Assembly: GCA_025353725.1 (NCBI GenBank)
Contig: JANXOF010000006.1
Span: forward strand, 1-51,642
Origin: Polyangiaceae bacterium
GTDB lineage: Bacteria > Myxococcota_A > Polyangia > Polyangiales > Polyangiaceae
Length of the DNA stretch: 51,642 nucleotides
Direction: 5' to 3'
In this document: piece after piece, positions 3,811-37,741 of the stretch
Numbering within the stretch: position 1 is the stretch's first letter
Layout of the letters: every line of letters begins with the position of its first letter
Position numbers and translations under genes: made by a program
The notes under the pieces: generated by a model
Seen by the model: only the letters and a program-made list of their open reading frames with translations
The model's database searches: none
Told to the model about the DNA's origin: nothing

Positions 3811-5154
3811 GTGCAAGCTATCGAACTCACCGAACTCTATCGAAACCATCTTCGCTCTGTCGAGGCGCGTTATGCGCGTGCCCTCGCCGAAGCGGAGTTT
3901 GATGCGGTCATCGTGCACTCGGGCACACCGAAGAAGCGTACCGACTTCGACGACCAGACGTTCCCGCTACGTCCAACCCCCGAGTTTCACCTCTGGGCGC
4001 CGCTCACGGAGCCGGATTGCTTCATCGTCTTCGAGACCGGCAAGCGGACGCAACTCGTATGGCCTAAATGCAAGAGCTTCTGGGAGCGACCGGCGCCGCC
4101 TGACGCTACGCATTTTCTCGAGACGCTCGACGTCAGACGCGTCGACGAGCCCAGCATCGACGAGTTCACCGGCAAGCGCGTCGCCTGGTACGGAGAGGAC
4201 ACCGCTCGGGCGAGAAGCCTTGGAATCCCCGACGCAGCTATGAACGTACCGTCTCTCGTTGCCGCACTGGATGGCGGTCGCGTGCTGAAAACGCCTTACG
4301 AACTTGCTTGTCTTGCCGAGGCGAATCGCCTTGCCGCGAAGGGACACGAAGCCGTGCGCCTGGCGTTTGCCGGCGGCGTTCACTCCGAACTCGAACTTCA
4401 TCTTGCGTTTCTCGGTGCGACTCGCCAGGACGATCAAGAAACCCCGTACAAGAACATCGTCGCCCTCGGTCGCAATGGCGCAGTGCTTCATCACGTGAGT
4501 TACGGGCGTGATGCGACGCGCGCGGGTTCATTACTTCTCGACGCCGGCGCGTGCTTTCTAGGATATTGTTCAGATATCACAAGAACGTGGGCGCGCCGCG
4601 AACCGGGGACCGACGGAAGCGCCGGAAGCGCCTTCGCCTCACTCGTCTTAGCGATGGAGGCGATGCAGCAAAACCTCGTCGCTCAAATTCGCGTAGGATT
4701 GCCCTACGAGGACCTGCATGACGCGTCGCATCGCGCACTTAGCGCACTCCTCGTCGAGGCAGGAATCGCGAAAGGCTCAGCGGAGGCGATCGAACAGATT
4801 GGCGTGAGTCGTGCATTCTATCCGCATGGACTCGGTCACTCCATAGGTCTCGTCACGCACGACGTTGGCTGCGCGAGCCTTAGCCCGCGCAAAGATAATC
4901 CGTTTCTTCGCAACACGGCGCTTATCGAGGAAAGCCAAGTGTTCACCATCGAGCCAGGCCTCTACTTCATCGAGCCCTTGCTCGCAGAATTACGCGCCAA
5001 GCCCGAAGGCAAACAAGTGAATTGGACGACTGTCGAGGCCCTTGCCCCGTTCGGTGGAATACGCATCGAGGACGACGTCGTGGTGCTCTCGTCGGGCCAA
5101 GGCGTTCGAAACCTCACGCGCGAGGTCCTTCCGGTCGGAGGCGCCGCCGTCTGA
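3811..5154 (+). CDS. pepQ: Xaa-Pro dipeptidase (M24B)
   Basis: Dimetal peptidase of 447 residues that splits dipeptides with proline in second position. The C-terminal pita-bread domain has all five expected metal ligands: Asp244 (LLLDAG), Asp255 (YCSDITRTW), His339 (YPHGLGHSIG), Glu381 (FTIEPGLYF) and Glu420 (GGIRIEDDV); spacing matches E. coli PepQ very closely. The N-terminal domain (1 to about 165) is the usual creatinase-like half. GTG at 3811 is chosen because GGAAG lies 5 bp before it and the family-typical opening ELTELYRNHL follows. Cytoplasmic, no signal peptide. Some members also hydrolyse organophosphates, which cannot be judged here. Confidence 0.93.
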   Translation: MQAIELTELYRNHLRSVEARYARALAEAEFDAVIVHSGTPKKRTDFDDQTFPLRPTPEFHLWAPLTEPDCFIVFETGKRTQLVWPKCKSFWERPAPPDATHFLETLDVRRVDEPSIDEFTGKRVAWYGEDTARARSLGIPDAAMNVPSLVAALDGGRVLKTPYELACLAEANRLAAKGHEAVRLAFAGGVHSELELHLAFLGATRQDDQETPYKNIVALGRNGAVLHHVSYGRDATRAGSLLLDAGACFLGYCSDITRTWARREPGTDGSAGSAFASLVLAMEAMQQNLVAQIRVGLPYEDLHDASHRALSALLVEAGIAKGSAEAIEQIGVSRAFYPHGLGHSIGLVTHDVGCASLSPRKDNPFLRNTALIEESQVFTIEPGLYFIEPLLAELRAKPEGKQVNWTTVEALAPFGGIRIEDDVVVLSSGQGVRNLTREVLPVGGAAV

Positions 5155-5237
5155 CCAGGAGGCAAGGTGAGGCGTGCGGCCCTGAAAGTCCGCGCTCGCC
5201 GACGCCGACACAGGCGGCGCTTCACGAGGGCTCGTTC

Positions 5238-5636
5238 CTAGACCTTTTTCTCGAAGTCTAGGGACGCTGAGTTGATACAGTACCGGAGGCCGCCTTGTTC
5301 GCGAGGCCCGTCGTCGAACACATGCCCGAGGTGGGCGCCGCAGTCCGCGCAGAGCGCCTCGGTGCGCGTCATGGAATGCGACCTGTCGACTTCGGATGCC
5401 ACGTTCGCCGAGGCGGCCGGCCTCGTGAAGCTTGGCCATCCGCTGCCGGACTCAAACTTATCTTCCGACGCAAAAAGCTCGGCCTTGCAACCTGCGCAAC
5501 GGTAGATGCCTTGGTCGTGGCAATCCCAGTAGGTGCCCGTAAAGGCTCGCTCTGTGCCTTTTTGCCTCAGAATTGCGTATTGCTCGGGGGTGAGCTCGGC
5601 TTTCCATTCGGCGTCCGATTTCGCGTTCTTTGTCAT
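5238..5636 (-). CDS. msrB: Peptide-methionine (R)-S-oxide reductase
   Basis: Repairs the R epimer of methionine sulfoxide in proteins. The 132-residue protein has both zinc CxxC pairs (Cys47/Cys50 in CAGC and Cys96/Cys99 in CADC), the GSGWPSF substrate motif, and the catalytic Cys120 in RYCIN. No selenocysteine is involved. ATG 5636 is preferred because AGGAG lies 7 nt upstream; a longer upstream open frame is not needed. The gene is divergent from the peroxiredoxin with 113 bp between starts, so both may respond to oxidative stress from one regulatory region. Confidence 0.95.
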
Positions 5637-5749
5637 CGTGACTCCTGTTTCGTCGCGGGCTGCCGCTTTCGGCCTGCGTCCCTGAGGCTCTACTTTATGA
5701 GTCCCTATCGCGCACCGAGGCATCGTAGGATGTGCGAAGGAGAATGACC
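5637..5749. promoter_or_regulatory. Divergent msrB / peroxiredoxin control region
   Basis: 113 bp between two oxidative-stress starts. On the + strand TAGGAT (5726-5731) is a possible -10, followed by AAGGAG (5737-5742) before ATG 5750. On the - strand AGGAG precedes msrB. I could not identify an OxyR- or PerR-type operator. Confidence 0.45.
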
Positions 5750-6403
5750 ATGAGTGACCTCTCGACCACGACGGTTTCGCTTCCGCGGCTCAACGAGCCC
5801 GCACCTCAATTCACTGCGACGGCAACGACGGGCTCGATTAAGCTCAGTGATTATAAGGGAAAGTGGGTCGTGCTGTTCTCCCACCCCGCCGACTTTACGC
5901 CCGTGTGCTCCACCGAGTTTGCTGGCTTCGCCGCCAAGCAAGCGGAATTCGACAAGCGCGGAGTGCAACTCATCGGTGTCAGCATCGACAGTGTCTATTC
6001 CCACCTTGCGTGGATCCAAAGCGTTGAAAAAAACTTCGCGATTAAGATCACTTTCCCCGTGATTGCGGACCTCGATACCAAAGTGGCTCAGGCCTACGGC
6101 ATGATTCACCCAGGCGCGAGCACGACGGCGACCGTGCGCGCGGTCTTCCTCATAGACCCGGCCCAAACCGTACGCGCGATGATTTACTACCCGATGTCGA
6201 CGGGTCGCAACATCGACGAAATCCTTCGCGTGATTGACGCGCTGCAGCTCAACGTGGAGAAAGGCCTCGCCACGCCGGCCAATTGGAAGCTTGGAGACAA
6301 GGCTATCGTCCCGGCCCCCGTTACGGCGGAGGGCGTGGAGAAACGATTGAAGGAATCAGGCGTCGAAGTAAAAGATTGGTATCTGACCTACAAGAAACTC
6401 TAA
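5750..6403 (+). CDS. 1-Cys peroxiredoxin (Prx6 type)
   Basis: Thiol peroxidase of 217 residues that reduces hydrogen peroxide and organic hydroperoxides. The active-site motif [11 protein letters not shown] carries the peroxidatic Cys53; the protein has no other Cys, so no internal resolving partner exists. Length and the long C-terminal part ([20 protein letters not shown] onwards) fit the Prx6 group rather than AhpC or Bcp. ATG 5750 is chosen because AAGGAG is spaced 7 nt from it and only 1 nt from the ATG at 5744. The stop is followed after 12 bp by a large kinase gene, a tight arrangement that suggests cotranscription. Confidence 0.94.
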
Positions 6404-6415
6404 ATTCGACGCCTC

Positions 6416-9400
6416 GTGGTTGAGCCTGGCACCACTCTCGCGGCGAGGTTCGAGGTCGAGCGACGCGTGAGCGCGGGCGGAATGTCAGCCGTTTTTTGCG
6501 CCTACGACACGCACCTTGGTGGTCAAGCGGCCATCAAGGTGCTGTACGGCCGTGACGCAGGAGAACACAAGCAAAGGCTCTACCGCGAAGCGCGTATCCT
6601 AGAGAAGCTGAGCCACCCCGGTATCGTAAAGCACCTCGCCCATGGCGAAACGGCGGATGGGATGCCGTATCTTGCGATGGAGTGGGTTACGGGAGAGACT
6701 CTCGGAAGGCGTCTCACGCGAACAGGGCTGACGATGGGTGAAAGCGTAGCGATGGTCACGCGCATCGCGGAAAGCCTTTCCGTCACCCACTCGAAAGGTA
6801 TCATTCATCGCGATATCAAGCCTAGCAACCTCTTGCTCCGTGATACCGACCTCGACCGACCCACGCTCATTGATTTTGGAATTGCACGGATGGGTCTTGG
6901 AGCGAGTGCACTCACGAAAACAGGAGTCATGCTCGGTACCCTCGGGTACATGGCTCCCGAGCAGGCGCGCGGCGCCAAACATCTCGATGCACGCGCCGAC
7001 GTTTTCGCACTCGGAGCCGTACTCTTCAAATGTCTGACGGGTGTACCTGCGTTTGCAGGCGACGACGAGATTGCCATCCTCGCGAAGATGCTCTTCGAGA
7101 CACCGCCACGGCTCCGCGAATTACGCAAGGACGCGCCTCCCCTTCTGGATAATCTGCTTTCGCGGATGCTTTCACGGGATCCGCTTCTTCGGCCGTCCGA
7201 CGCCGGAGTCGTCGCGGCCGAGCTCGCCGCACTCGGTAGTCTCGATACGACGGGAAGCTACGGCGCTCGCGAAGCCAGCCGTCACGCGGATATCATCACG
7301 CGCGGCGAGCAGCGCCTTGTGAGCGTGATGGCTGTCGCCTCGAGCCCATCGAGCGTGCAGGAGTCGATGGACGACGACGGTACGTGGAAGGATACAAAGC
7401 CCCTTTCGGCGAGACTTGCCTACGCGATTCATCCGTTTGGCGCGGGCCTCGAAGCGCTCGCGAACGGCATTCTCGTCGTCACGCTTCCGGGTCGGCATAG
7501 CGCGACAGATCAGGCAACGCGGGCGGCACGGTGTGTCCTCGCCATGCGCACGGCCGCGCCGGAGGCCATCATGGTCCTGGCCACCGGCCGTGCAGAGCTC
7601 GACGCACGCGTGCCCACCGGTGATGCCGTCGACCGAGCCCTTCGCATGCTCGAGGCACGGCCGGGCGACACGTCAGCATCGGCAAGCGCTCGTCCGCCGA
7701 TTCGCATCGACGGGGTAACGGCCGGGCTGCTCGACACGCGCTTCGTTGTGCGGACCGACGGCGCCGGAATCGAGCTCGTTTCTGAGCAGGCTGCAGTCGA
7801 CCCTGGGCGGATGCTTCTTGGCAAGCCTACGCCCTGCGTCGGTCGCGAACGGGAACTTGTCATGCTCGAGGGGTACTTCGCAGAATGTGTGGCTGACGAC
7901 GTCGCGCGCGTGGTGCTCGTGACGGCGCCCGCAGGAGTTGGGAAATCACGTCTTCGATACGAGTTGCTCCGCACGCTGCATCACCGCGGCGACCCCCACG
8001 AGGTCTGGACGACGCGCGGCGATCCGATGCGAGCAGGGTCACCGTTTGGCCTGCTGGCGCAAATCCTCCGCGCCGCGGCGGCCTCGCACGACGGCGAACC
8101 CGCTCGCGTCCAACGCGAAAAGCTTCGCGCCCGAGTTGGACGCCATGTCGCAGAAAGCGAGCAGGCGCGAGTCACGCAATTTCTCGCCGAAGTACTTAGC
8201 ATCTCCATGCTCGAAGGAGCGGATGTGCAGCTCCGAGCCGCCAGGCACGATCCACGGATCATGGGCGACCAGATGCGCCGCGCGTTCGAGGATTGGCTTC
8301 ACGCAGAATGCACCGCCCAGCCGATCGTCATCGTCCTCGAGGACTTGCATTGGGGCGACTTACCGAGCGTCACGTTCATCGATGCCGGGCTGCGTGCGGT
8401 TCAAGACAAGCCACTGATGGTGCTCGCGCTCGCGCGGCCCGAAGTGAAAGATCTCTTCCCCGAGCTATTTGCGGAGCGCGGTGTCCACGAGCTACGCCTC
8501 AAGGATCTTTCAAAAAAAGCAAGCGAACGGCTCGTCCGTCAGGTGCTCGGCAACTTCGTCACCGAACCGACGGTCGCGCAGATAGTGACGACGGCGGCGG
8601 GCAATGCCTTCTATCTCGAAGAGCTGATTCGAGCCGTCGCGGCCGCCGCTCCGGGCGCGCCGCTCGGTCTCCCCGAGACCGTGCTAAGCATGGTGCAGGC
8701 GCGTCTCGGAGCGCTTGAGCCAGAGGCGCGGCGCCTGCTGAGAGCCGCAAGCGTGTTCGGGCAAACGTTTTGGCGCGGGGGCGTCGTTGCGCTGCTGGCG
8801 GGTCAAGACGGCGAGGCGCACGTCACGGCTTGGCTCGATGAGCTCTGCTTACGTGAAAGCGTTACGCGCCGCGAAGAGACTAGGTTTCACGGCGAACAGG
8901 AATACGTATTCAGGCACGCTTTCATCGCGGAAGCCGCTTATTCGATGCTGACTGACAAGGACCGAAGCATTGGCCACAAGCTCGCCGCGGAGTGGCTCGA
9001 GAGCGTAGGTGAAAGCGAGGCTGTCGTGCTTGCCGAGCATCTCGCGCGCGGTGGCGAGCCCAAGCGAGCCATCGGTTTCTACCGGCGAGCGGCGGCGCAA
9101 GCGCTGGAGGGTAACGATCTCGAGGCGTGTCTTCAACGCGCGAATGCCGGCATGGCGTGTGGTGCCGAGGGCGAAGTACTCGGCCGGCTCGCCTTGCGAA
9201 AAGCTGAAGCCCATCGTTGGCGCGGGGAGCACATCGCGGCGAAAGCGTGCGCCGAACAAGCATTGAAGCTCCTTCCGCGCGGAGGTCAACGTTGGTTTCT
9301 CGCGGCAGGCGAAACCGTGGAGGCGTCGGCTCGCCTCGGTGACGAAGGCGACCTTCATCGCACGGTCGACGAGCTCTGCGAAGTCGGAGAACAAGGGACG

Positions 9401-10345
9401 GTCAGCCCTCCCCACCTTGTCGCTCTCGCGCGCGCCGCGTGCGTTCTCATGCAAGCAGGAAACTACCCTTCGGCCGACGATCTACTCCGAACGATAGACG
9501 CCGCCTTCGAGCCGTTGCGATCCGCAGGCGACGATCCGCGGTCGACCGCAAGCGTCTATCGAACGCGCGCCTACCGGGCTTCCGTCGCGGGAGACGCAGC
9601 CTCTGCGCTTTCCCTTTACAACGTCGCCATCGTTCAATTCGACAAAGCTGGAGACACGCGTTCCGCGTGCAGACATGTGGTTAGTGCCGCAGCGGCGTGT
9701 ATCGAGCTCGGGGCGTACGGGGACGCGGAACGCGCGCTCAACGACGCCCTCGTTTCTGCCGACCGCATGGGGCTATCGGGCGTAAGGGCCATCGCCGTTC
9801 ATCACATGGGCATGCTCATGTCGCGACTCGGCGAATCCGCCGCGGCTCTTGCGCTCGCCGACGAAGCCATCAAAGCGTTCAACTCGCAAGGGGATCACCG
9901 CATGGAGGGCGCGGCACGCATCTACCGCGCTCGCTTCGTCGCGACCGACGGAGAGCTCGACCGCGCACACGTCGAACTCAAAAGCACAATGCTCAACTTT
10001 GCCCTTACGAAGCCCACGCAAGCCTATGCACTCGCCATTCTCGCGCGCACTACGTTGAACGCCGGACGGCATGCCCTCGCGGAAGCACCGGCGCGTGAGG
10101 CGATGGAAATCGTCGACATCCTAGGCGGCGTAGAGGAGGGAGAATCGTACATTCGCTTAGCATTCGCGGAAGTCCTCCATGCCCTCGGGGATTACGACGC
10201 AGCCCGCGAGGCTATCGGAACCGCGCGCGTCCGCATTCTGGAGCGCACTTTGATGATTCACGACCCGACGTGGAGCGTGAGCTTCGTCGAATGCGTCGAC
10301 GAAAATGCGCGCACCTTAGAGCTCGCCCAGCGTTGGACGCTTTGA
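6416..10345 (+). CDS. Hybrid Ser/Thr protein kinase - STAND-like ATPase - TPR regulator
   Basis: 1309-residue cytoplasmic signalling protein. Residues about 12-275 are a eukaryotic-type kinase with catalytic Lys41, HRDIKPSN (Asp133), DFG at 153-155 and APE (PEQA) near 181. About 300-480 looks like a degenerate class III nucleotide-cyclase-like region (inference from pattern, catalytic residues not seen). A P-loop, APAGVGKS with Lys510, and Walker B VIVLEDLHWGD (Asp643) mark an AAA/STAND ATPase. The rest is helical TPR-like repeats to the end. No membrane segment. Such hybrids are a myxobacterial speciality; ligand and targets are unknown. The GTG start is 12 bp after the peroxiredoxin stop, and a TAAATT (6401-6406) could also give it its own start point. 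Confidence 0.88.
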   Translation: MVEPGTTLAARFEVERRVSAGGMSAVFCAYDTHLGGQAAIKVLYGRDAGEHKQRLYREARILEKLSHPGIVKHLAHGETADGMPYLAMEWVTGETLGRRLTRTGLTMGESVAMVTRIAESLSVTHSKGIIHRDIKPSNLLLRDTDLDRPTLIDFGIARMGLGASALTKTGVMLGTLGYMAPEQARGAKHLDARADVFALGAVLFKCLTGVPAFAGDDEIAILAKMLFETPPRLRELRKDAPPLLDNLLSRMLSRDPLLRPSDAGVVAAELAALGSLDTTGSYGAREASRHADIITRGEQRLVSVMAVASSPSSVQESMDDDGTWKDTKPLSARLAYAIHPFGAGLEALANGILVVTLPGRHSATDQATRAARCVLAMRTAAPEAIMVLATGRAELDARVPTGDAVDRALRMLEARPGDTSASASARPPIRIDGVTAGLLDTRFVVRTDGAGIELVSEQAAVDPGRMLLGKPTPCVGRERELVMLEGYFAECVADDVARVVLVTAPAGVGKSRLRYELLRTLHHRGDPHEVWTTRGDPMRAGSPFGLLAQILRAAAASHDGEPARVQREKLRARVGRHVAESEQARVTQFLAEVLSISMLEGADVQLRAARHDPRIMGDQMRRAFEDWLHAECTAQPIVIVLEDLHWGDLPSVTFIDAGLRAVQDKPLMVLALARPEVKDLFPELFAERGVHELRLKDLSKKASERLVRQVLGNFVTEPTVAQIVTTAAGNAFYLEELIRAVAAAAPGAPLGLPETVLSMVQARLGALEPEARRLLRAASVFGQTFWRGGVVALLAGQDGEAHVTAWLDELCLRESVTRREETRFHGEQEYVFRHAFIAEAAYSMLTDKDRSIGHKLAAEWLESVGESEAVVLAEHLARGGEPKRAIGFYRRAAAQALEGNDLEACLQRANAGMACGAEGEVLGRLALRKAEAHRWRGEHIAAKACAEQALKLLPRGGQRWFLAAGETVEASARLGDEGDLHRTVDELCEVGEQGTVSPPHLVALARAACVLMQAGNYPSADDLLRTIDAAFEPLRSAGDDPRSTASVYRTRAYRASVAGDAASALSLYNVAIVQFDKAGDTRSACRHVVSAAAACIELGAYGDAERALNDALVSADRMGLSGVRAIAVHHMGMLMSRLGESAAALALADEAIKAFNSQGDHRMEGAARIYRARFVATDGELDRAHVELKSTMLNFALTKPTQAYALAILARTTLNAGRHALAEAPAREAMEIVDILGGVEEGESYIRLAFAEVLHALGDYDAAREAIGTARVRILERTLMIHDPTWSVSFVECVDENARTLELAQRWTL

Positions 10346-13428: not shown

Positions 13429-16191
13429 TCACGGAAGGCTCTTAGGTACTCCGGACCCGTGGGTACACCCTTTGATTTTAGCCAGTTTCGCACGGGCAAC
13501 GATATCTTGTGCACGTTTCGCAAATTGCTCGGCTTCCGCCAAGGCAGCCGCGTCATTCCGGACATCTGGGGAAGATCGCAACACCGTGGCATAGACGCTA
13601 CAACTCCTCGCGAGTTCCACGTCGTTACCAATTTCCTCGAACACCCAAATGGATTGGAGAAGATGCGTGCGCGCGCTCAGTGCGCTATCGGCCTCAGCAA
13701 CACCGGACGTCACCCGAGCAGACGCTATCTCTCCCAACGTGCGAAGCGCGACTCCTAACTGCACCTTGCACTGCAGCGTGCGAAAAATGTCGACGGCTCG
13801 CGTCGCGTCGCGGTGGGCACGAGCCGTTGCCCGCTGCGCGAGGTGCGCCTCGCTCAGGACGCGAAGCGCCTCACCCAGACCGAGCTTGTCGCCGAGTTCT
13901 TCGGCAATCGTGACGGCATGACCGAGGTGATGAACGGCTTGCGCAGGGTTACCAAGTCGTAGTTCGGTCGCTCCAAGATTCGTCAGAACAAGAACGAGGC
14001 GCCGTCGGCTACCGGATTCGTTCGCCACCTCGCGGGCCTCGAGAAAGAGCGTCAGCGCGCGCGCATCGTCGTGCTGGTCCTGAGCCACCGTGCCCAAATT
14101 GTTGAGGGAAACGGCAACGCCAACAAGGTCGGCTATCTCACGCCGAATGCGCAACGACTGCTCGAATGCGTCGAGTGCGAGTTTGAACTGGCCCGAGTCC
14201 TGGTAAACAAGGCCAAGGTTGTTGAGCGAACGCGCGATCGAGCGGCGATCGCCTAGCTTGCGACGCGCAGTCAGGCCGCGCTGGGTTGCTTGAAGGGCAA
14301 GCGAATGGTTGCCCCGAAGCAACCAGAGCTTTCCGATGTCGTCGGCCGTAGAGGCTACGCCGGCATCGCTCTTTACATCTTCGAATAACGCAAGCGCGGA
14401 TTCGAGATGTTGCTGAGCCTCATCGAGACGACCCGTATCACGGTAGAGGCGACCGATGCGCGTGTGCGCGGCAGCTCCCTCCGATCTGAGGTTAAGACGA
14501 TAAGCCCGGACCAGCATTTCATTGAAGGCATCGAGCGCCTCGTCGTTCTTACCCAAAACGTGGAGAACGTCACCGTAGTTGTGCAGCGCGCGGAGTTGCT
14601 GTTCGGTCGACCCCTCTGCGCCGTCGCGCAAGAGTCCAAGGCCCTTTATATAGTATTCGGAAGCCTTCGCTGTAGCGTGGCGCGAACGGGCGAGATCTGC
14701 GGCATCGAGAAATGTTGCGGCGGCCTGAACGACGAGGGAAGCGCTCGACTGATGGCGCGCTAACTGGCCAAGGTGCTCTTCGTGGGTGCGAACAGCCGGC
14801 TTGAAAGAAAGCCAATCCGCGACTGCCTTGTGAAAGCGGATGGCCTGACCGCGTGGGAGGAGCGCGAGAAGCGTCTCGCGCTCGAGATTGTGCTTGAAGG
14901 CGAACTCCTCCTCGTCCGGGAACGTGCTGTCCGGCAGCGTAAGAATGTAATCGCGCTCGCGAAGCTCCTTCAATGTCGCGCGAATCGCCGCGTCGTCCGT
15001 GACGGAGCCGCGGGTCCACATGTCTGGGGCGCTCGCGTCGAGGCGCGCGATCGAGAGGAGCCCACCCATCCAAAACACGCTGCCCATGGTCGCTGCACGC
15101 TCAAGAACATCGCGCTCATCGGCACTCAGCGCCGAAATTCGTGCTTGAACGGCATCGACAACGGTAAGTGGGAGACGCACCTCGGAAAGCCTTTCGGCGT
15201 GCACGCTCCACGTCTCGGGCTCGGCGAATTCGTCTCTAACCTGAAGGACGTTATGGTCTCGAAAGACGGAAACCATGCGTTCGAGAAGTGCCGGATTGCC
15301 ACCGGCCAACGTGACCGCCGCGTCGACCAGCTCCGCAACGCCTTCGGCGCCACCGCATGGCGCGAGGAGCGAGATCATCACGCGCGCCGCATCGGAGTCG
15401 TTCAGTGGCTCGAGATCGACGAGCCTATGGCGAGACCCGCCGGCTTTGGCCCAACCGCCTTGCGTGGCAAGAAGCTCGGGCCGCGCGAGGCAGAGGATCA
15501 AAACGGGTCCGACTAGGCTGTCGATCAGATGCTCGATGAGCGCCAGCGATTCGCGCGCCGCGACGTGAAGATCATCGAAAAGGAGGACGATCGGCGACTC
15601 GGCAACACCGACGGATCGGCTGACGCCACCCACCGCCGTCTCTGGTCGACGCGCGTCGGTCTCGATAAACTGCGTGAGCACGGAGCGGCGGAGCAGACTC
15701 ATCGCGGCCGCGTCGTCACGTACCGCATCGACGAGCGGTGACGAGGTGAACTCAAGGTGCATGAGTTGGCCGAGAAACATGCAGATATCATCCACTTGGC
15801 GATCCTGAAGGACGGCGCTCACGTGCTGGCGGACCTGAGCCCTGGCCGCATCATCATCGACTCCCTCAACGATGCCAAAGCGCGCGCGGAGGATGAGCGA
15901 GAACACCCCATAGGCCCCACTCCCTTCCCGTGCCGAGCCGCGGAAGACGCGCGGTGCACCCCGCTCGTTCGACAGCCGCTTCGAGAGAAAATCGCGAACC
16001 AAACGCGTCTTTCCGACCCCGTTTGCGCCGAGGAGCGTCACCACCCGCGGCTTGCCGTGGTCGCGCACGTCCTGGAGCGACTGTTCGAGAACCTGAATTT
16101 CGGCGACGCGGCCAACGAGTGCCGCCCGGCGGTCAATCGTCCCGAAGCCCGGAGGGATAACGCTAACAGGTTCGCTCTTGCCGGAATCCAA
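13429..16191 (-). CDS. STAND-type ATPase with TPR repeats (no kinase domain)
   Basis: 920-residue regulator-like protein. It opens with a short tail, then the ATPase: VGRVAEIQVLEQSL, Walker A GANGVGKT with Lys61, and Walker B PIVLLFDDLHV near 220. A helical linker follows, and about 500 to 850 consists of TPR units, seen clearly as repeated A-SLNNLG-VYQDSG-, ALDAFEQSLRI and similar. Layout and motifs match the C-terminal two thirds of the kinase hybrid at 6416-10345, so the two are probable paralogues; here no kinase or DNA-binding domain is attached. Start is TTG at 16191, since no ATG or GTG precedes the conserved region; this is uncertain. Ligand and partner unknown. Confidence 0.82.
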   Translation of the reverse strand: MDSGKSEPVSVIPPGFGTIDRRAALVGRVAEIQVLEQSLQDVRDHGKPRVVTLLGANGVGKTRLVRDFLSKRLSNERGAPRVFRGSAREGSGAYGVFSLILRARFGIVEGVDDDAARAQVRQHVSAVLQDRQVDDICMFLGQLMHLEFTSSPLVDAVRDDAAAMSLLRRSVLTQFIETDARRPETAVGGVSRSVGVAESPIVLLFDDLHVAARESLALIEHLIDSLVGPVLILCLARPELLATQGGWAKAGGSRHRLVDLEPLNDSDAARVMISLLAPCGGAEGVAELVDAAVTLAGGNPALLERMVSVFRDHNVLQVRDEFAEPETWSVHAERLSEVRLPLTVVDAVQARISALSADERDVLERAATMGSVFWMGGLLSIARLDASAPDMWTRGSVTDDAAIRATLKELRERDYILTLPDSTFPDEEEFAFKHNLERETLLALLPRGQAIRFHKAVADWLSFKPAVRTHEEHLGQLARHQSSASLVVQAAATFLDAADLARSRHATAKASEYYIKGLGLLRDGAEGSTEQQLRALHNYGDVLHVLGKNDEALDAFNEMLVRAYRLNLRSEGAAAHTRIGRLYRDTGRLDEAQQHLESALALFEDVKSDAGVASTADDIGKLWLLRGNHSLALQATQRGLTARRKLGDRRSIARSLNNLGLVYQDSGQFKLALDAFEQSLRIRREIADLVGVAVSLNNLGTVAQDQHDDARALTLFLEAREVANESGSRRRLVLVLTNLGATELRLGNPAQAVHHLGHAVTIAEELGDKLGLGEALRVLSEAHLAQRATARAHRDATRAVDIFRTLQCKVQLGVALRTLGEIASARVTSGVAEADSALSARTHLLQSIWVFEEIGNDVELARSCSVYATVLRSSPDVRNDAAALAEAEQFAKRAQDIVARAKLAKIKGCTHGSGVPKSLP

Positions 16192-35416: not shown

Positions 35417-37741
35417 TCAGTTAACCTTCGGTTGAACGCCCATTTCGCGGAGAAGATGGTCGCCGTTGTCTACGGCGTCGAGCAGCCAAAGCACGTAGCG
35501 CACGTCGACGTGAATGCTGCGCGTCAACGACTTCGTAAAGACCCAGTCGGAGGCCATCGCCTCGTAATTGCCGTCGAAGACAAGGCCAACCAGCTCGCCC
35601 TTCGCGTTGAGCGTCGCGGAACCCGAATTGCCTCCGGTGATATGCAAGTCGGCAAGAAAGTCGACAGGCACATCACCGAGCTTTTCGTCCACATAAGCGC
35701 CGGTGGTCTTCGCGTCACGAGCCGCACGTAGACGCTCGGGCACGTCGAACGGCGCGACTCCCTTGTCCTTCGCGATAACCTCGGTGAGCGAGGTGAACGG
35801 CCGATAGGGCGCGGACTCCGCAGTGGGCTTGTAACCGCGCACGGTGCCGTACGTAATTCGGAGCGTACCGTTTGCGTCGGGCGCAAAGGGCTCCTTGCGA
35901 TAGGCACGCATTGCCTCGATGTATTGCGGCTTGAGCACCGACATCCGGCCCGCGAGCCGCTCCTGGCGCTCCTCAGCCTCGCGCGCAAGCGGCCTTAGCG
36001 TGAGCGCAAGAGCGACGATAGGGTCTTTGCTTTTGCGGAGATCGGCCGTTGTCGCTTTACGAAAGAGCTCGATTCGAGTCTTCGCGTCGCCGAGCGTCGT
36101 GGTGTCGTAGAGGCGAGCCACGCTCTTTTTGATGCCCTCGTTCGACGTCTCTTTCGCGTCGATAATTTTCGCGAACGCAGGACTTCTGTCGCGCACTGGA
36201 ACGCGCGCGGCGCGCTCAATCGCGAGACCGAGAAGGGCCTCGTCGACCTTTCGATTGTAGCTCGTGACAAGCCCATCAAGGGCCTGCTCGCGACGTGCCC
36301 AATTACGCTGCTGAAACTCCGGATCCCGGTCGGAATCAAGCTTTTCACGCTCCTCAGCCATGCGAACGATCGAAGCTGCGGCCGACATCAAACGAGGAAG
36401 GTTCAACTCCTCGCGCAGCTCAGCGTCGGCCTCGCGATGCGCCGCGTTCTTCTGCACTTCTGTGCCGATGGCGCCGAGCACACCCCCGAACTTCGCTTTT
36501 CGCGTCTTGTCGCCGTCGACGAATGCGCTGAGCTCCTTTTCCATACGCGCCTTGTCCTGCGCGAGCCCCCCCTTGACGAGCCCCTCGAGCTGGCCCTTCG
36601 TGTTCGTGAGCGCATTGCCAAATCCGCGTACGTAAGACGTCGCGCGAATCTGTGCCTCCTTGTCGCCCTTCGTCGCCTCGTCGAGCCGCGCGAGATATTC
36701 TTCGAGAAACTTCTGACGGCGCGGGTAACCCCAGGCGATCGTCTCGCTGACCTCGGCGCCCGTCTTCAACGATTGGGTACGCCCCGGATATCCCGCGACA
36801 AGAACAAGGTCGTTTTCGCGCAAGGGCTCTTTGGCAATCCGAAGCCAGTGGGGCGGCTTGTAGGGAACGTTGTCGGCCGCGAAATCCGCCGGCTGACCGT
36901 CTTTCCCTACGTAGGCACGGAAGAACGAAACGTCGCCCGTGTGCCTCGGCCAGCGCCAATTGTCGACCTCGCCGCCGTAGTTGCCGACGCTCTGCGGAGG
37001 CGCCCACACGAGACGCACATCGCGAATTTCAAGTTGTTCGATAAGAAAATGTTGCGCCCCCTCGTAGAAGCTCGCCACGCTGCAGCGCAGGCCCGTGCGG
37101 CCCTTCTCGCACGCGGCAACGGTCTCCTTTTGGCGCTTTTCGATCGTTTTGAATCGCTTGCGATCGTCGGGCAACGTCGCAATGCCGTCCATCACCTTCG
37201 CGGTCACGTCCGTGACGGCGCGGGTCACAAAGATTCGCGACTGCGGTCCGTTGTTTTTCTCCTCCGCGTGGGTCTTTGCGAGGAACCCGTCAACCAAAAG
37301 ATTTTGAGCTGGCGTGCTGTTGTGCTGGAGGGCGCCGGTGGCGCAGTGGTGGTTCGTCGCGACAAGTCCTTCGGGCGAGATGAACGACGCCGAACATCCA
37401 CCGAGACTCACGACGGCTGAAAGCAACCCTGAAGTCGGGTCGGCAAGCTCGCTCGGGTCGACGGCGAGCCCGAGCTCTTTGAGCTTTGTCGCGTGCGCGG
37501 TCATTTGATTCGGCATCCACATGCCGCCGGGGTTCTCGAATCGCGCGGGGGCAGGCTGGTACGCCTTCGCTTCAGGTGACTCGGCCACTTTCGGGACAGA
37601 ACCGAGCGCGGCGCCTGGTGCTTCTGGTGCCATCGGAACTGGCGGACGGTCGCCCGCGCACGAAAGTGCCGCGAGTGAACCGGTGATGCCAAACATGAAG
37701 AGGAAACACGAACTTAGGGGGGATGTGGGATTTCGTCGCAT
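35417..37741 (-). CDS. S46-family dipeptidyl-peptidase (DPP7-like) lipoprotein
   Basis: 774-residue exported serine peptidase releasing N-terminal dipeptides. Signal with lipobox LSC near residue 28, then the mature enzyme. The split trypsin-like triad is visible: His in LVATNHHCATG (131-132) and Ser706 in ITGGNSGSATL, with the large helical insert between them. Eighteen residues after the Ser, in LVFDGNYE, the position that separates DPP7 (Gly) from DPP11 (Arg) is Gly, which favours hydrophobic rather than acidic P1 residues (family knowledge, position inferred by count). Peptide scavenging from protein is a fitting role in a predatory or proteolytic lifestyle. Confidence 0.93.
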   Translation of the reverse strand: MRRNPTSPLSSCFLFMFGITGSLAALSCAGDRPPVPMAPEAPGAALGSVPKVAESPEAKAYQPAPARFENPGGMWMPNQMTAHATKLKELGLAVDPSELADPTSGLLSAVVSLGGCSASFISPEGLVATNHHCATGALQHNSTPAQNLLVDGFLAKTHAEEKNNGPQSRIFVTRAVTDVTAKVMDGIATLPDDRKRFKTIEKRQKETVAACEKGRTGLRCSVASFYEGAQHFLIEQLEIRDVRLVWAPPQSVGNYGGEVDNWRWPRHTGDVSFFRAYVGKDGQPADFAADNVPYKPPHWLRIAKEPLRENDLVLVAGYPGRTQSLKTGAEVSETIAWGYPRRQKFLEEYLARLDEATKGDKEAQIRATSYVRGFGNALTNTKGQLEGLVKGGLAQDKARMEKELSAFVDGDKTRKAKFGGVLGAIGTEVQKNAAHREADAELREELNLPRLMSAAASIVRMAEEREKLDSDRDPEFQQRNWARREQALDGLVTSYNRKVDEALLGLAIERAARVPVRDRSPAFAKIIDAKETSNEGIKKSVARLYDTTTLGDAKTRIELFRKATTADLRKSKDPIVALALTLRPLAREAEERQERLAGRMSVLKPQYIEAMRAYRKEPFAPDANGTLRITYGTVRGYKPTAESAPYRPFTSLTEVIAKDKGVAPFDVPERLRAARDAKTTGAYVDEKLGDVPVDFLADLHITGGNSGSATLNAKGELVGLVFDGNYEAMASDWVFTKSLTRSIHVDVRYVLWLLDAVDNGDHLLREMGVQPKVN

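Follow-up and report, generated by a model that had tools for sequence, protein, structure and literature searches.

A Prx6-type peroxiredoxin gene directly upstream of a Ser/Thr kinase-ATPase-TPR gene in a Polyangiaceae bacterium: a recurrent, lineage-bound association and a candidate two-gene transcription unit

In Myxococcus xanthus, the eukaryotic-like kinase gene pktD1 (pkn4) shares an operon with pfk, whose product is a metabolic enzyme and a substrate of the kinase, and the region is syntenic in seven myxobacteria, according to the available portion of the published account (PMC2887360). In the glnX-glnH-pknG arrangement of actinobacteria, a cytosolic Ser/Thr kinase with tetratricopeptide repeats (TPR) is encoded together with an amino-acid solute-binding protein, and in mycobacteria and the majority of other actinobacteria PknG carries a rubredoxin-like domain to which the transmission of redox stimuli is attributed, as described in the accessible parts of two sources (PMC9769921, PMC8546545). 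Here, we report a locus from a 51,642-nucleotide stretch of DNA of a Polyangiaceae bacterium (contig JANXOF010000006.1 of assembly GCA_025353725.1; the whole stretch is hereafter the window and the genome the source genome), in which a Prx6-type peroxiredoxin (Prx) gene, named prxB here, is followed on the same strand by the gene of a 1309-residue kinase. The locus resembles pktD1 (pkn4)-pfk in that a kinase gene would share an operon with that of a metabolic enzyme, and differs from it in that the pair is patchy among relatives and the enzyme is not known to be a substrate of the kinase. Compared with glnX-glnH-pknG, the kinase has a different architecture and the binding protein found in relatives is fused to a permease and accompanied by an ATP-binding cassette (ABC) ATPase, whereas compared with PknG the redox protein is a separate peroxidase and not a rubredoxin domain. 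Reported 1-Cys Prx6-type peroxiredoxins, such as LsfA of Pseudomonas aeruginosa, share with PrxB the fold family, the PVC(S/T)TE active site, and the 1-cysPrx_C domain, but the prxB gene adjoins that of a protein kinase. The literature among the matches listed, mostly open-access, contains neither such a case for these enzymes nor a bacterial Prx-kinase unit, in agreement with a preliminary description of this DNA, which knew of no described system of this form. As a reading of the locus, we propose, with about an even chance of being right, that prxB and the kinase gene constitute a two-gene transcription unit that arose by capture and co-expression in the source genome.

The arrangement was surveyed in 183 genomes of the same taxonomic order, of which 94 matched the prxB query at E≤1e-40 and 112 matched the kinase query, taken without its kinase domain, at E≤1e-50. 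Fifteen kinases sharing at least 53% identity comprised the orthologue set, namely those of the source genome, of G117 to G127 (same genus), of G153 and G154 (g44), and of G074 (g9); genes in the relatives were predicted from codon usage by a caller for which 16 genes at these loci served as training set, with a manually assigned start for the G118 kinase. A Prx6-type gene occupies the position directly upstream of the kinase (the slot) in 5/15 orthologues (source genome, G154, G117, G122, and G123), and in one more (G120) it lies one gene away, across an opposite-strand hybrid histidine kinase gene. No Prx was observed in the slot of the other nine, which holds an ABC ATPase in G121, G125, and G127, another kinase in G153, and a small gene in G119 (PIN-like by a label given by eye); in G126 the kinase is preceded by ABC genes and then four others, and in G074, G118, and G124 by unrelated or no close genes. 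The prx-kinase order, which the preliminary description had expected relatives to share, was thus recovered as an adjacency in 4 of the 14 other orthologues and is lacking in nine, with G120 standing between. Five of the 15 genomes (G121 and G124 to G127) carry a Prx elsewhere, and four (G118, G119, G074, and G153) have no Prx match at E≤1e-40, the absence in G153, an 81% complete genome, being deduced from the 94 matching genomes, in which it does not appear. A search of the spacers at Prx-less loci gave no match under E 3, so that Prx remnants were rejected there, and no Prx was found upstream of 18 more distantly related kinases of the family. The Prx contig of G154 ends within a kinase gene, and the 63-residue fragment that it encodes is closest to the G153 orthologue (65%), which suggests that it is the start of the G154 kinase, the remainder presumably lying on another contig.

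The Prx genes found at these loci belong to two distinct lineages. In a tree of 94 rows, built after exclusion of four rows shorter than 190 aa, the source prxB grouped with the sequences of G154 and G090 (support 86/96); the G090 protein is 76% identical to PrxB and its gene lacks an adjacent kinase. The Prx of G117, G120, G122, and G123, named prxA here, is only 41–46% identical to the source prxB and falls inside the common Prx6 clade; a branch 1.53 changes per site in length (100/100) separates this clade from prxB. In the kinase tree, the four prxA carriers form one clade (100/100), and the source kinase clusters with those of G121, G126, and G127 (98/99), all without Prx in the slot, so that at least three changes are needed to account for the state of the slot. 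From these topologies it follows that the slot of this kinase either was reached by unrelated Prx6 genes on more than one occasion or saw one Prx6 gene exchanged in place for another.

A kinase neighbour is common in the source genome, where 148 stretches match the kinase protein (some being fragments of one gene), and adjacency in one genome therefore means little. The available part of PMC2887360 likewise warns that about every thirtieth myxobacterial gene encodes a kinase and that gene proximity is not to be over-interpreted. We accordingly read the Prx loci themselves: of 102 hits, three (G174:C513, G103:C246, and G176:C328) were not fetched and one locus (L108) had no called gene, which left 98 examined and 92 with a called downstream gene. 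That gene is on the same strand in 52/92 and encodes a kinase in six (source genome, G154, G117, G122, G123, and G114). Outside the five adjacent loci, a kinase directly follows Prx in 1/87 (G114; G120 is counted among the 87), which is about the base rate, and kinases were additionally detected as the second gene in two (G081 and G120) and upstream in one (G130); the PF00069 search scored about 13 candidates per genome and yields no exact kinase count. The exception, G114 (L053, 8377–12707), is a single case in which a Prx6-type gene is followed after 215 bp by that of a different Pkinase-AAA_16 protein. Another 44 matches, outside the order or newly read in the phylum, comprised four read before, 26 that gave loci L215 to L240 (22 with a called downstream gene and L215 resolved by its list of open reading frames, totaling 23), and 14 without a locus; none of these 23 further loci carries a kinase-Prx pair. 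A general rule of prx-kinase order was rejected on these two counts.

These frequencies bear on the explanation that the slot is a rearrangement hot spot into which Prx6 genes landed by chance, with proximity but no function, an explanation we regard as somewhat unlikely. It is consistent with the abundance of kinases, with the published caution just mentioned, with the varied content of the slot over the 15 orthologues (an ABC ATPase, another kinase, a hybrid histidine kinase, small genes, or Prx), and with the Prx-less upstream regions of the 18 distant family members. It accommodates less readily the finding that, within one orthologue set, two unrelated Prx6 lineages occupy the same slot, which points to a pairing beyond base-rate proximity. 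When two of three independent Prx-kinase adjacencies fall in a 15-member set, against over 10,000 kinases across the 183 genomes (a rough figure from loose counts), the corresponding probability is about 0.005 with hot-spot effects ignored. Together, these observations support an association of Prx and kinase that is real but lineage-bound.

The commoner companion of the kinase is an amino-acid ABC importer, composed of a fused SBP_bac_3-permease protein and an ATPase, which was found upstream of the kinase at 9/15 loci (G117, G120 to G123, G125 to G127, and G154; loci L090, L079, L080, L081, L087, L078, L077, L213, and L046). Where Prx is present at these loci, it sits between importer and kinase. 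The permease half of three tested importers matched a cystine permease model best, at 150–163 bits against a cut-off of 300, so that the sequence match is suggestive, at most, of cystine specificity. The importer is present in other genera as well, at 22 of 30 loci that were read, all 22 lacking Prx and this kinase in the 1.5-kb flanks; the ABC ATPase preceding the distant kinase of L158 was rejected as the same importer, its partner being an FtsX/MacB-type protein. In the source genome (97.55% complete, 98 contigs), the importer was not found, and the solute-binding protein gene present at nine of the 15 orthologous loci was correspondingly not found at its kinase locus. The position of the importer upstream of the kinase recalls glnX-glnH-pknG, where the solute-binding protein controls the kinase.

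A second feature common among the relatives is a promoter-like TATNAT box, located 9–13 nt before the kinase start in 9/15 orthologues (loci L090, L080, L079, L081, L087, L077, L088, L089, and L213), including all four prxA loci. Within the last 40 nt before the gene, the motif was observed in 10/15 kinases (that of G124 at 33 nt) compared with 1/181 other called genes of these loci, and letter shuffles gave an expectation of 0.12 in 15. Since the box stands directly before the kinase at these nine loci, co-transcription with Prx is not the general rule. No ribosome site is obvious at the box loci, a picture suggestive of a leaderless kinase mRNA, and the prxA carriers probably transcribe the kinase separately, on a nearly leaderless mRNA, to judge from the sequence. 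The box is absent in the source genome, G125, G153, G154, and G074; the upstream gene ends 12 bp before the kinase in the source genome and in G125, 1 bp before it in G153, and 45 bp before it in G154. In the source genome, the prxB stop falls about where the box would be.

Under the two-gene unit that we favour, a Prx6-type gene would have arrived in the slot more than once, as prxB in the source genome and G154 and as prxA in G117, G120, G122, and G123, the kinase being a lineage-bound regulator of kinase/cyclase-like/AAA_16/TPR type with the importer as its commoner companion. A loss of intervening DNA in the source genome would then have removed the importer genes together with the start-proximal box of the kinase, leaving both genes to be read from one promoter in front of prxB. 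Translation of the kinase would restart after the prx stop, as no ribosome site was seen in the 12-bp gap. Kinase output would from then on follow prxB expression, a coupling by co-expression that may bring a physiological gain.

Several points weigh against this proposal. The nearest kinase sisters (G127, G126, and G121) lack prx in the slot, so that retention from a common ancestor requires several losses and gain requires a prxB transfer, between which the trees do not decide, and the support of the source prxB group is only 86/96. The missing importer, in an assembly of the stated completeness and contig number, is not proof of loss. As for the box, G120 can be included only when the TTG favoured by homology is taken as the kinase start, the ATG chosen by the caller lying inside the box, and the 181 background starts come from the same codon-usage caller and may be misplaced. 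Additionally, a promoter and terminator scan of positions 5100–6700 returned no sigma-70-type promoter before prxB, and the kinase may be expressed from a site inside prxB.

The sequence of prxB is best read as that of an ordinary 1-Cys Prx6-type peroxidase, with peroxidase activity predicted. Its start was taken as the ATG at 5750, preceded by the AAGGAG motif at 5737–5742 and giving a 217-residue product that opens with M-S-D as in the G154 relative; the in-frame GTG at 5732, given in the list of open reading frames, and the ATG at 5744 were passed over. The product contains AhpC-TSA (6.3e-37) and 1-cysPrx_C (1.9e-10) domains, both above the curated cut-offs, scores 282.6 bits against the peroxiredoxin model NF009668 (cut-off 211), and has 5ovq as its nearest solved chain. 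It holds a single cysteine, Cys53 (TGC, 5906–5908) within PVCSTE, and is therefore of the 1-Cys type; its G154 and G090 relatives contain three and two cysteines, respectively. Prx6 enzymes as a group have no settled reductant, in the accessible text of PMC12697902.

The kinase carries the Pkinase domain, catalytic Lys, HRD, and DFG that define Hanks-type Ser/Thr kinases. With these motifs intact, the Prx could be a substrate or target of the kinase and co-expressed with it, which would explain why unrelated Prx6 proteins fill the slot and has a myxobacterial precedent in the pktD1 (pkn4)-pfk operon, where the pfk product is the kinase substrate in the part of PMC2887360 at hand. We consider this relation unlikely, as 4/15 kinase genomes have no Prx match at E≤1e-40 and five keep Prx elsewhere; the literature among the matches listed additionally contains no case of Prx phosphorylation in bacteria, which is weak evidence.

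Downstream of the kinase domain, the middle region reached no Pfam family above cut-off, and its AlphaFold model is of low confidence (mean pLDDT, the predicted local distance difference test score, 59.5). The 50 listed Foldseek matches of this model are nucleotidyl cyclases or cyclase-containing proteins, none at E≤0.001 and the best, a class III cyclase, at 3.9e-3, and the region is probably a degenerate class III nucleotidyl cyclase-like domain. The description of the protein as kinase-ATPase-TPR was thus right, and probably incomplete. Its best NCBIfam match is TIGR03903 (TOMM_kin_cyc), the TOMM system kinase/cyclase fusion, aligned over aa 37–899; both combine a kinase, a cyclase-like region (a probable one here), and an ATPase in one chain, but at 253.8 bits against an equivalog cut-off of 705.75 the source kinase is not a member of the family.

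The preliminary description had further suggested that the pair could be a redox-signalling unit in which the peroxiredoxin reports oxidation to the kinase. In such a relay, oxidised Prx would pass its state to the kinase and thereby alter its activity, a scenario that we find improbable, and the least likely of the four readings. The adjacency does recur in relatives, and 1-Cys Prx6 enzymes rely on an external partner to be reduced. Moreover, the accessible sections of two publications offer parallels, Prx6-type enzymes having been suggested as possible H2S sensors integrating H2O2 signals (PMC12697902) and PknG providing a case of redox influence on a TPR-bearing kinase, there through its own rubredoxin domain (PMC8546545). 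The kinases of the orthologue set contain 8 to 15 cysteines, of which Cys206, Cys373, Cys474, and Cys915 are invariant in 15/15, irrespective of Prx, and Cys491 is present in 6/6 Prx-associated kinases compared with 5/9 others. Cys491 leans toward the Prx-associated kinases but is not specific to them, and no other cysteine is; Cys28 and Cys1293 of the source kinase occur in no other orthologue covering the position. The kinase also persists in genomes without a Prx match, and the low identity between prxA and prxB makes a shared docking surface not evident. What stands of the earlier view is that the adjacency recurs, with two unrelated Prx6 lineages in the slot; the redox-signalling unit as such is unsupported, given that the pair is absent in 9/15 orthologues, that four kinase genomes have no Prx match, that the G090 prxB lacks a kinase neighbour, that no cysteine is specific to the Prx-associated kinases, and that 9/15 orthologues have a promoter-like box before the kinase. 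A broader conjecture, to which we attach little probability, makes the kinase the hub of a thiol/peroxide module comprising the importer, a Prx6 recruited at least twice, and the nearby msrB. The kinase would in that case read or set the oxidation/persulfide state or the phosphorylation of the Prx6, the module being pared in the source genome to Prx and kinase under one promoter.

The layout of the locus, with msrB divergent from the peroxiredoxin and 12 bp between the prx stop and the GTG of the kinase, was confirmed from coordinates and domains (Table 1). The identity of MsrB is supported by SelR and TIGR00357 matches, both above the curated cut-offs. Its role as half of a conserved divergent pair was ruled out, as 7.0–7.6 kb of other genes separates msrB from prx in G117, G122, and G123, and the divergence looks like a by-product. 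The prx and kinase genes share a reading frame (window 6401–6416), one TAA and four sense codons lying between them, which is a one-in-three coincidence. Farther downstream lies the gene of an AAA_16-TPR protein that has no kinase domain. Its orthologues are encoded close or adjacent to this kinase in G117, G123, and G124 (62–67%) and in G153 (51%), and it may have partnered the kinase for longer than Prx has. A Peptidase S46 gene (774 aa, 730 bits) was also observed at 35417–37741 on the minus strand.

Table 1. Coordinates of the features around prxB and the kinase gene, given as positions in the window
Feature	Position	Strand	Details
pepQ-like M24 peptidase	3811..5154	+	syntenic landmark; near msrB in G117, G121, G122, G123
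msrB, peptide-methionine (R)-S-oxide reductase	5238..5636	-	ATG at 5636, stop at 5238; SelR 6.9e-52; TIGR00357 182.6 bits (cut-off 113.05)
msrB-prx intergenic region	5637..5749		contains likely prx ribosome site AAGGAG (5737-5742)
prxB, 1-Cys Prx6-type peroxiredoxin	5750..6403	+	stop TAA 6401-6403
prxB-kinase spacer, 12 bp	6404..6415	+	no Shine-Dalgarno-like sequence, no TATNAT box
Ser/Thr kinase with probable cyclase-like region, AAA_16 (STAND-type) ATPase, and TPR-like region, 1309 aa	6416..10345	+	GTG 6416, stop 10343-10345
Protein kinase domain	6449..7201	+	aa 12-262; Pkinase 8.7e-40; AAIK, HRDIKPSN, DFG present
Middle region, probably degenerate class III nucleotidyl cyclase-like	7256..7825	+	aa about 281-470
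AAA_16 ATPase domain	7835..8422	+	aa 474-669; 8.5e-17; APAGVGKS at aa 504, VLEDLHWGD at aa 640
C-terminal TPR-like region	8900..10342	+	C-terminal 481 aa; TPR_12 and TPR_2 6.9e-6, below curated cut-offs; TPR_14 at its cut-off
AAA_16-TPR protein without kinase domain	13429..16191	-	

To our knowledge, few myxobacterial eukaryotic-like kinases have a known signal. Such kinases number up to hundreds in large myxobacterial genomes and 317 in S. cellulosum, by the figures in the available portion of PMC2887360. Against this background, the presence of Prx6 genes of two unrelated lineages in the slot marks this kinase as a concrete candidate for one linked to peroxide, and relatives with and without Prx allow natural comparisons. 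A genetic partner would likewise be useful for the Prx6 enzymes, because their reductant is unsettled. The case also suggests a route by which a kinase with its own promoter may be captured by a neighbouring stress gene.

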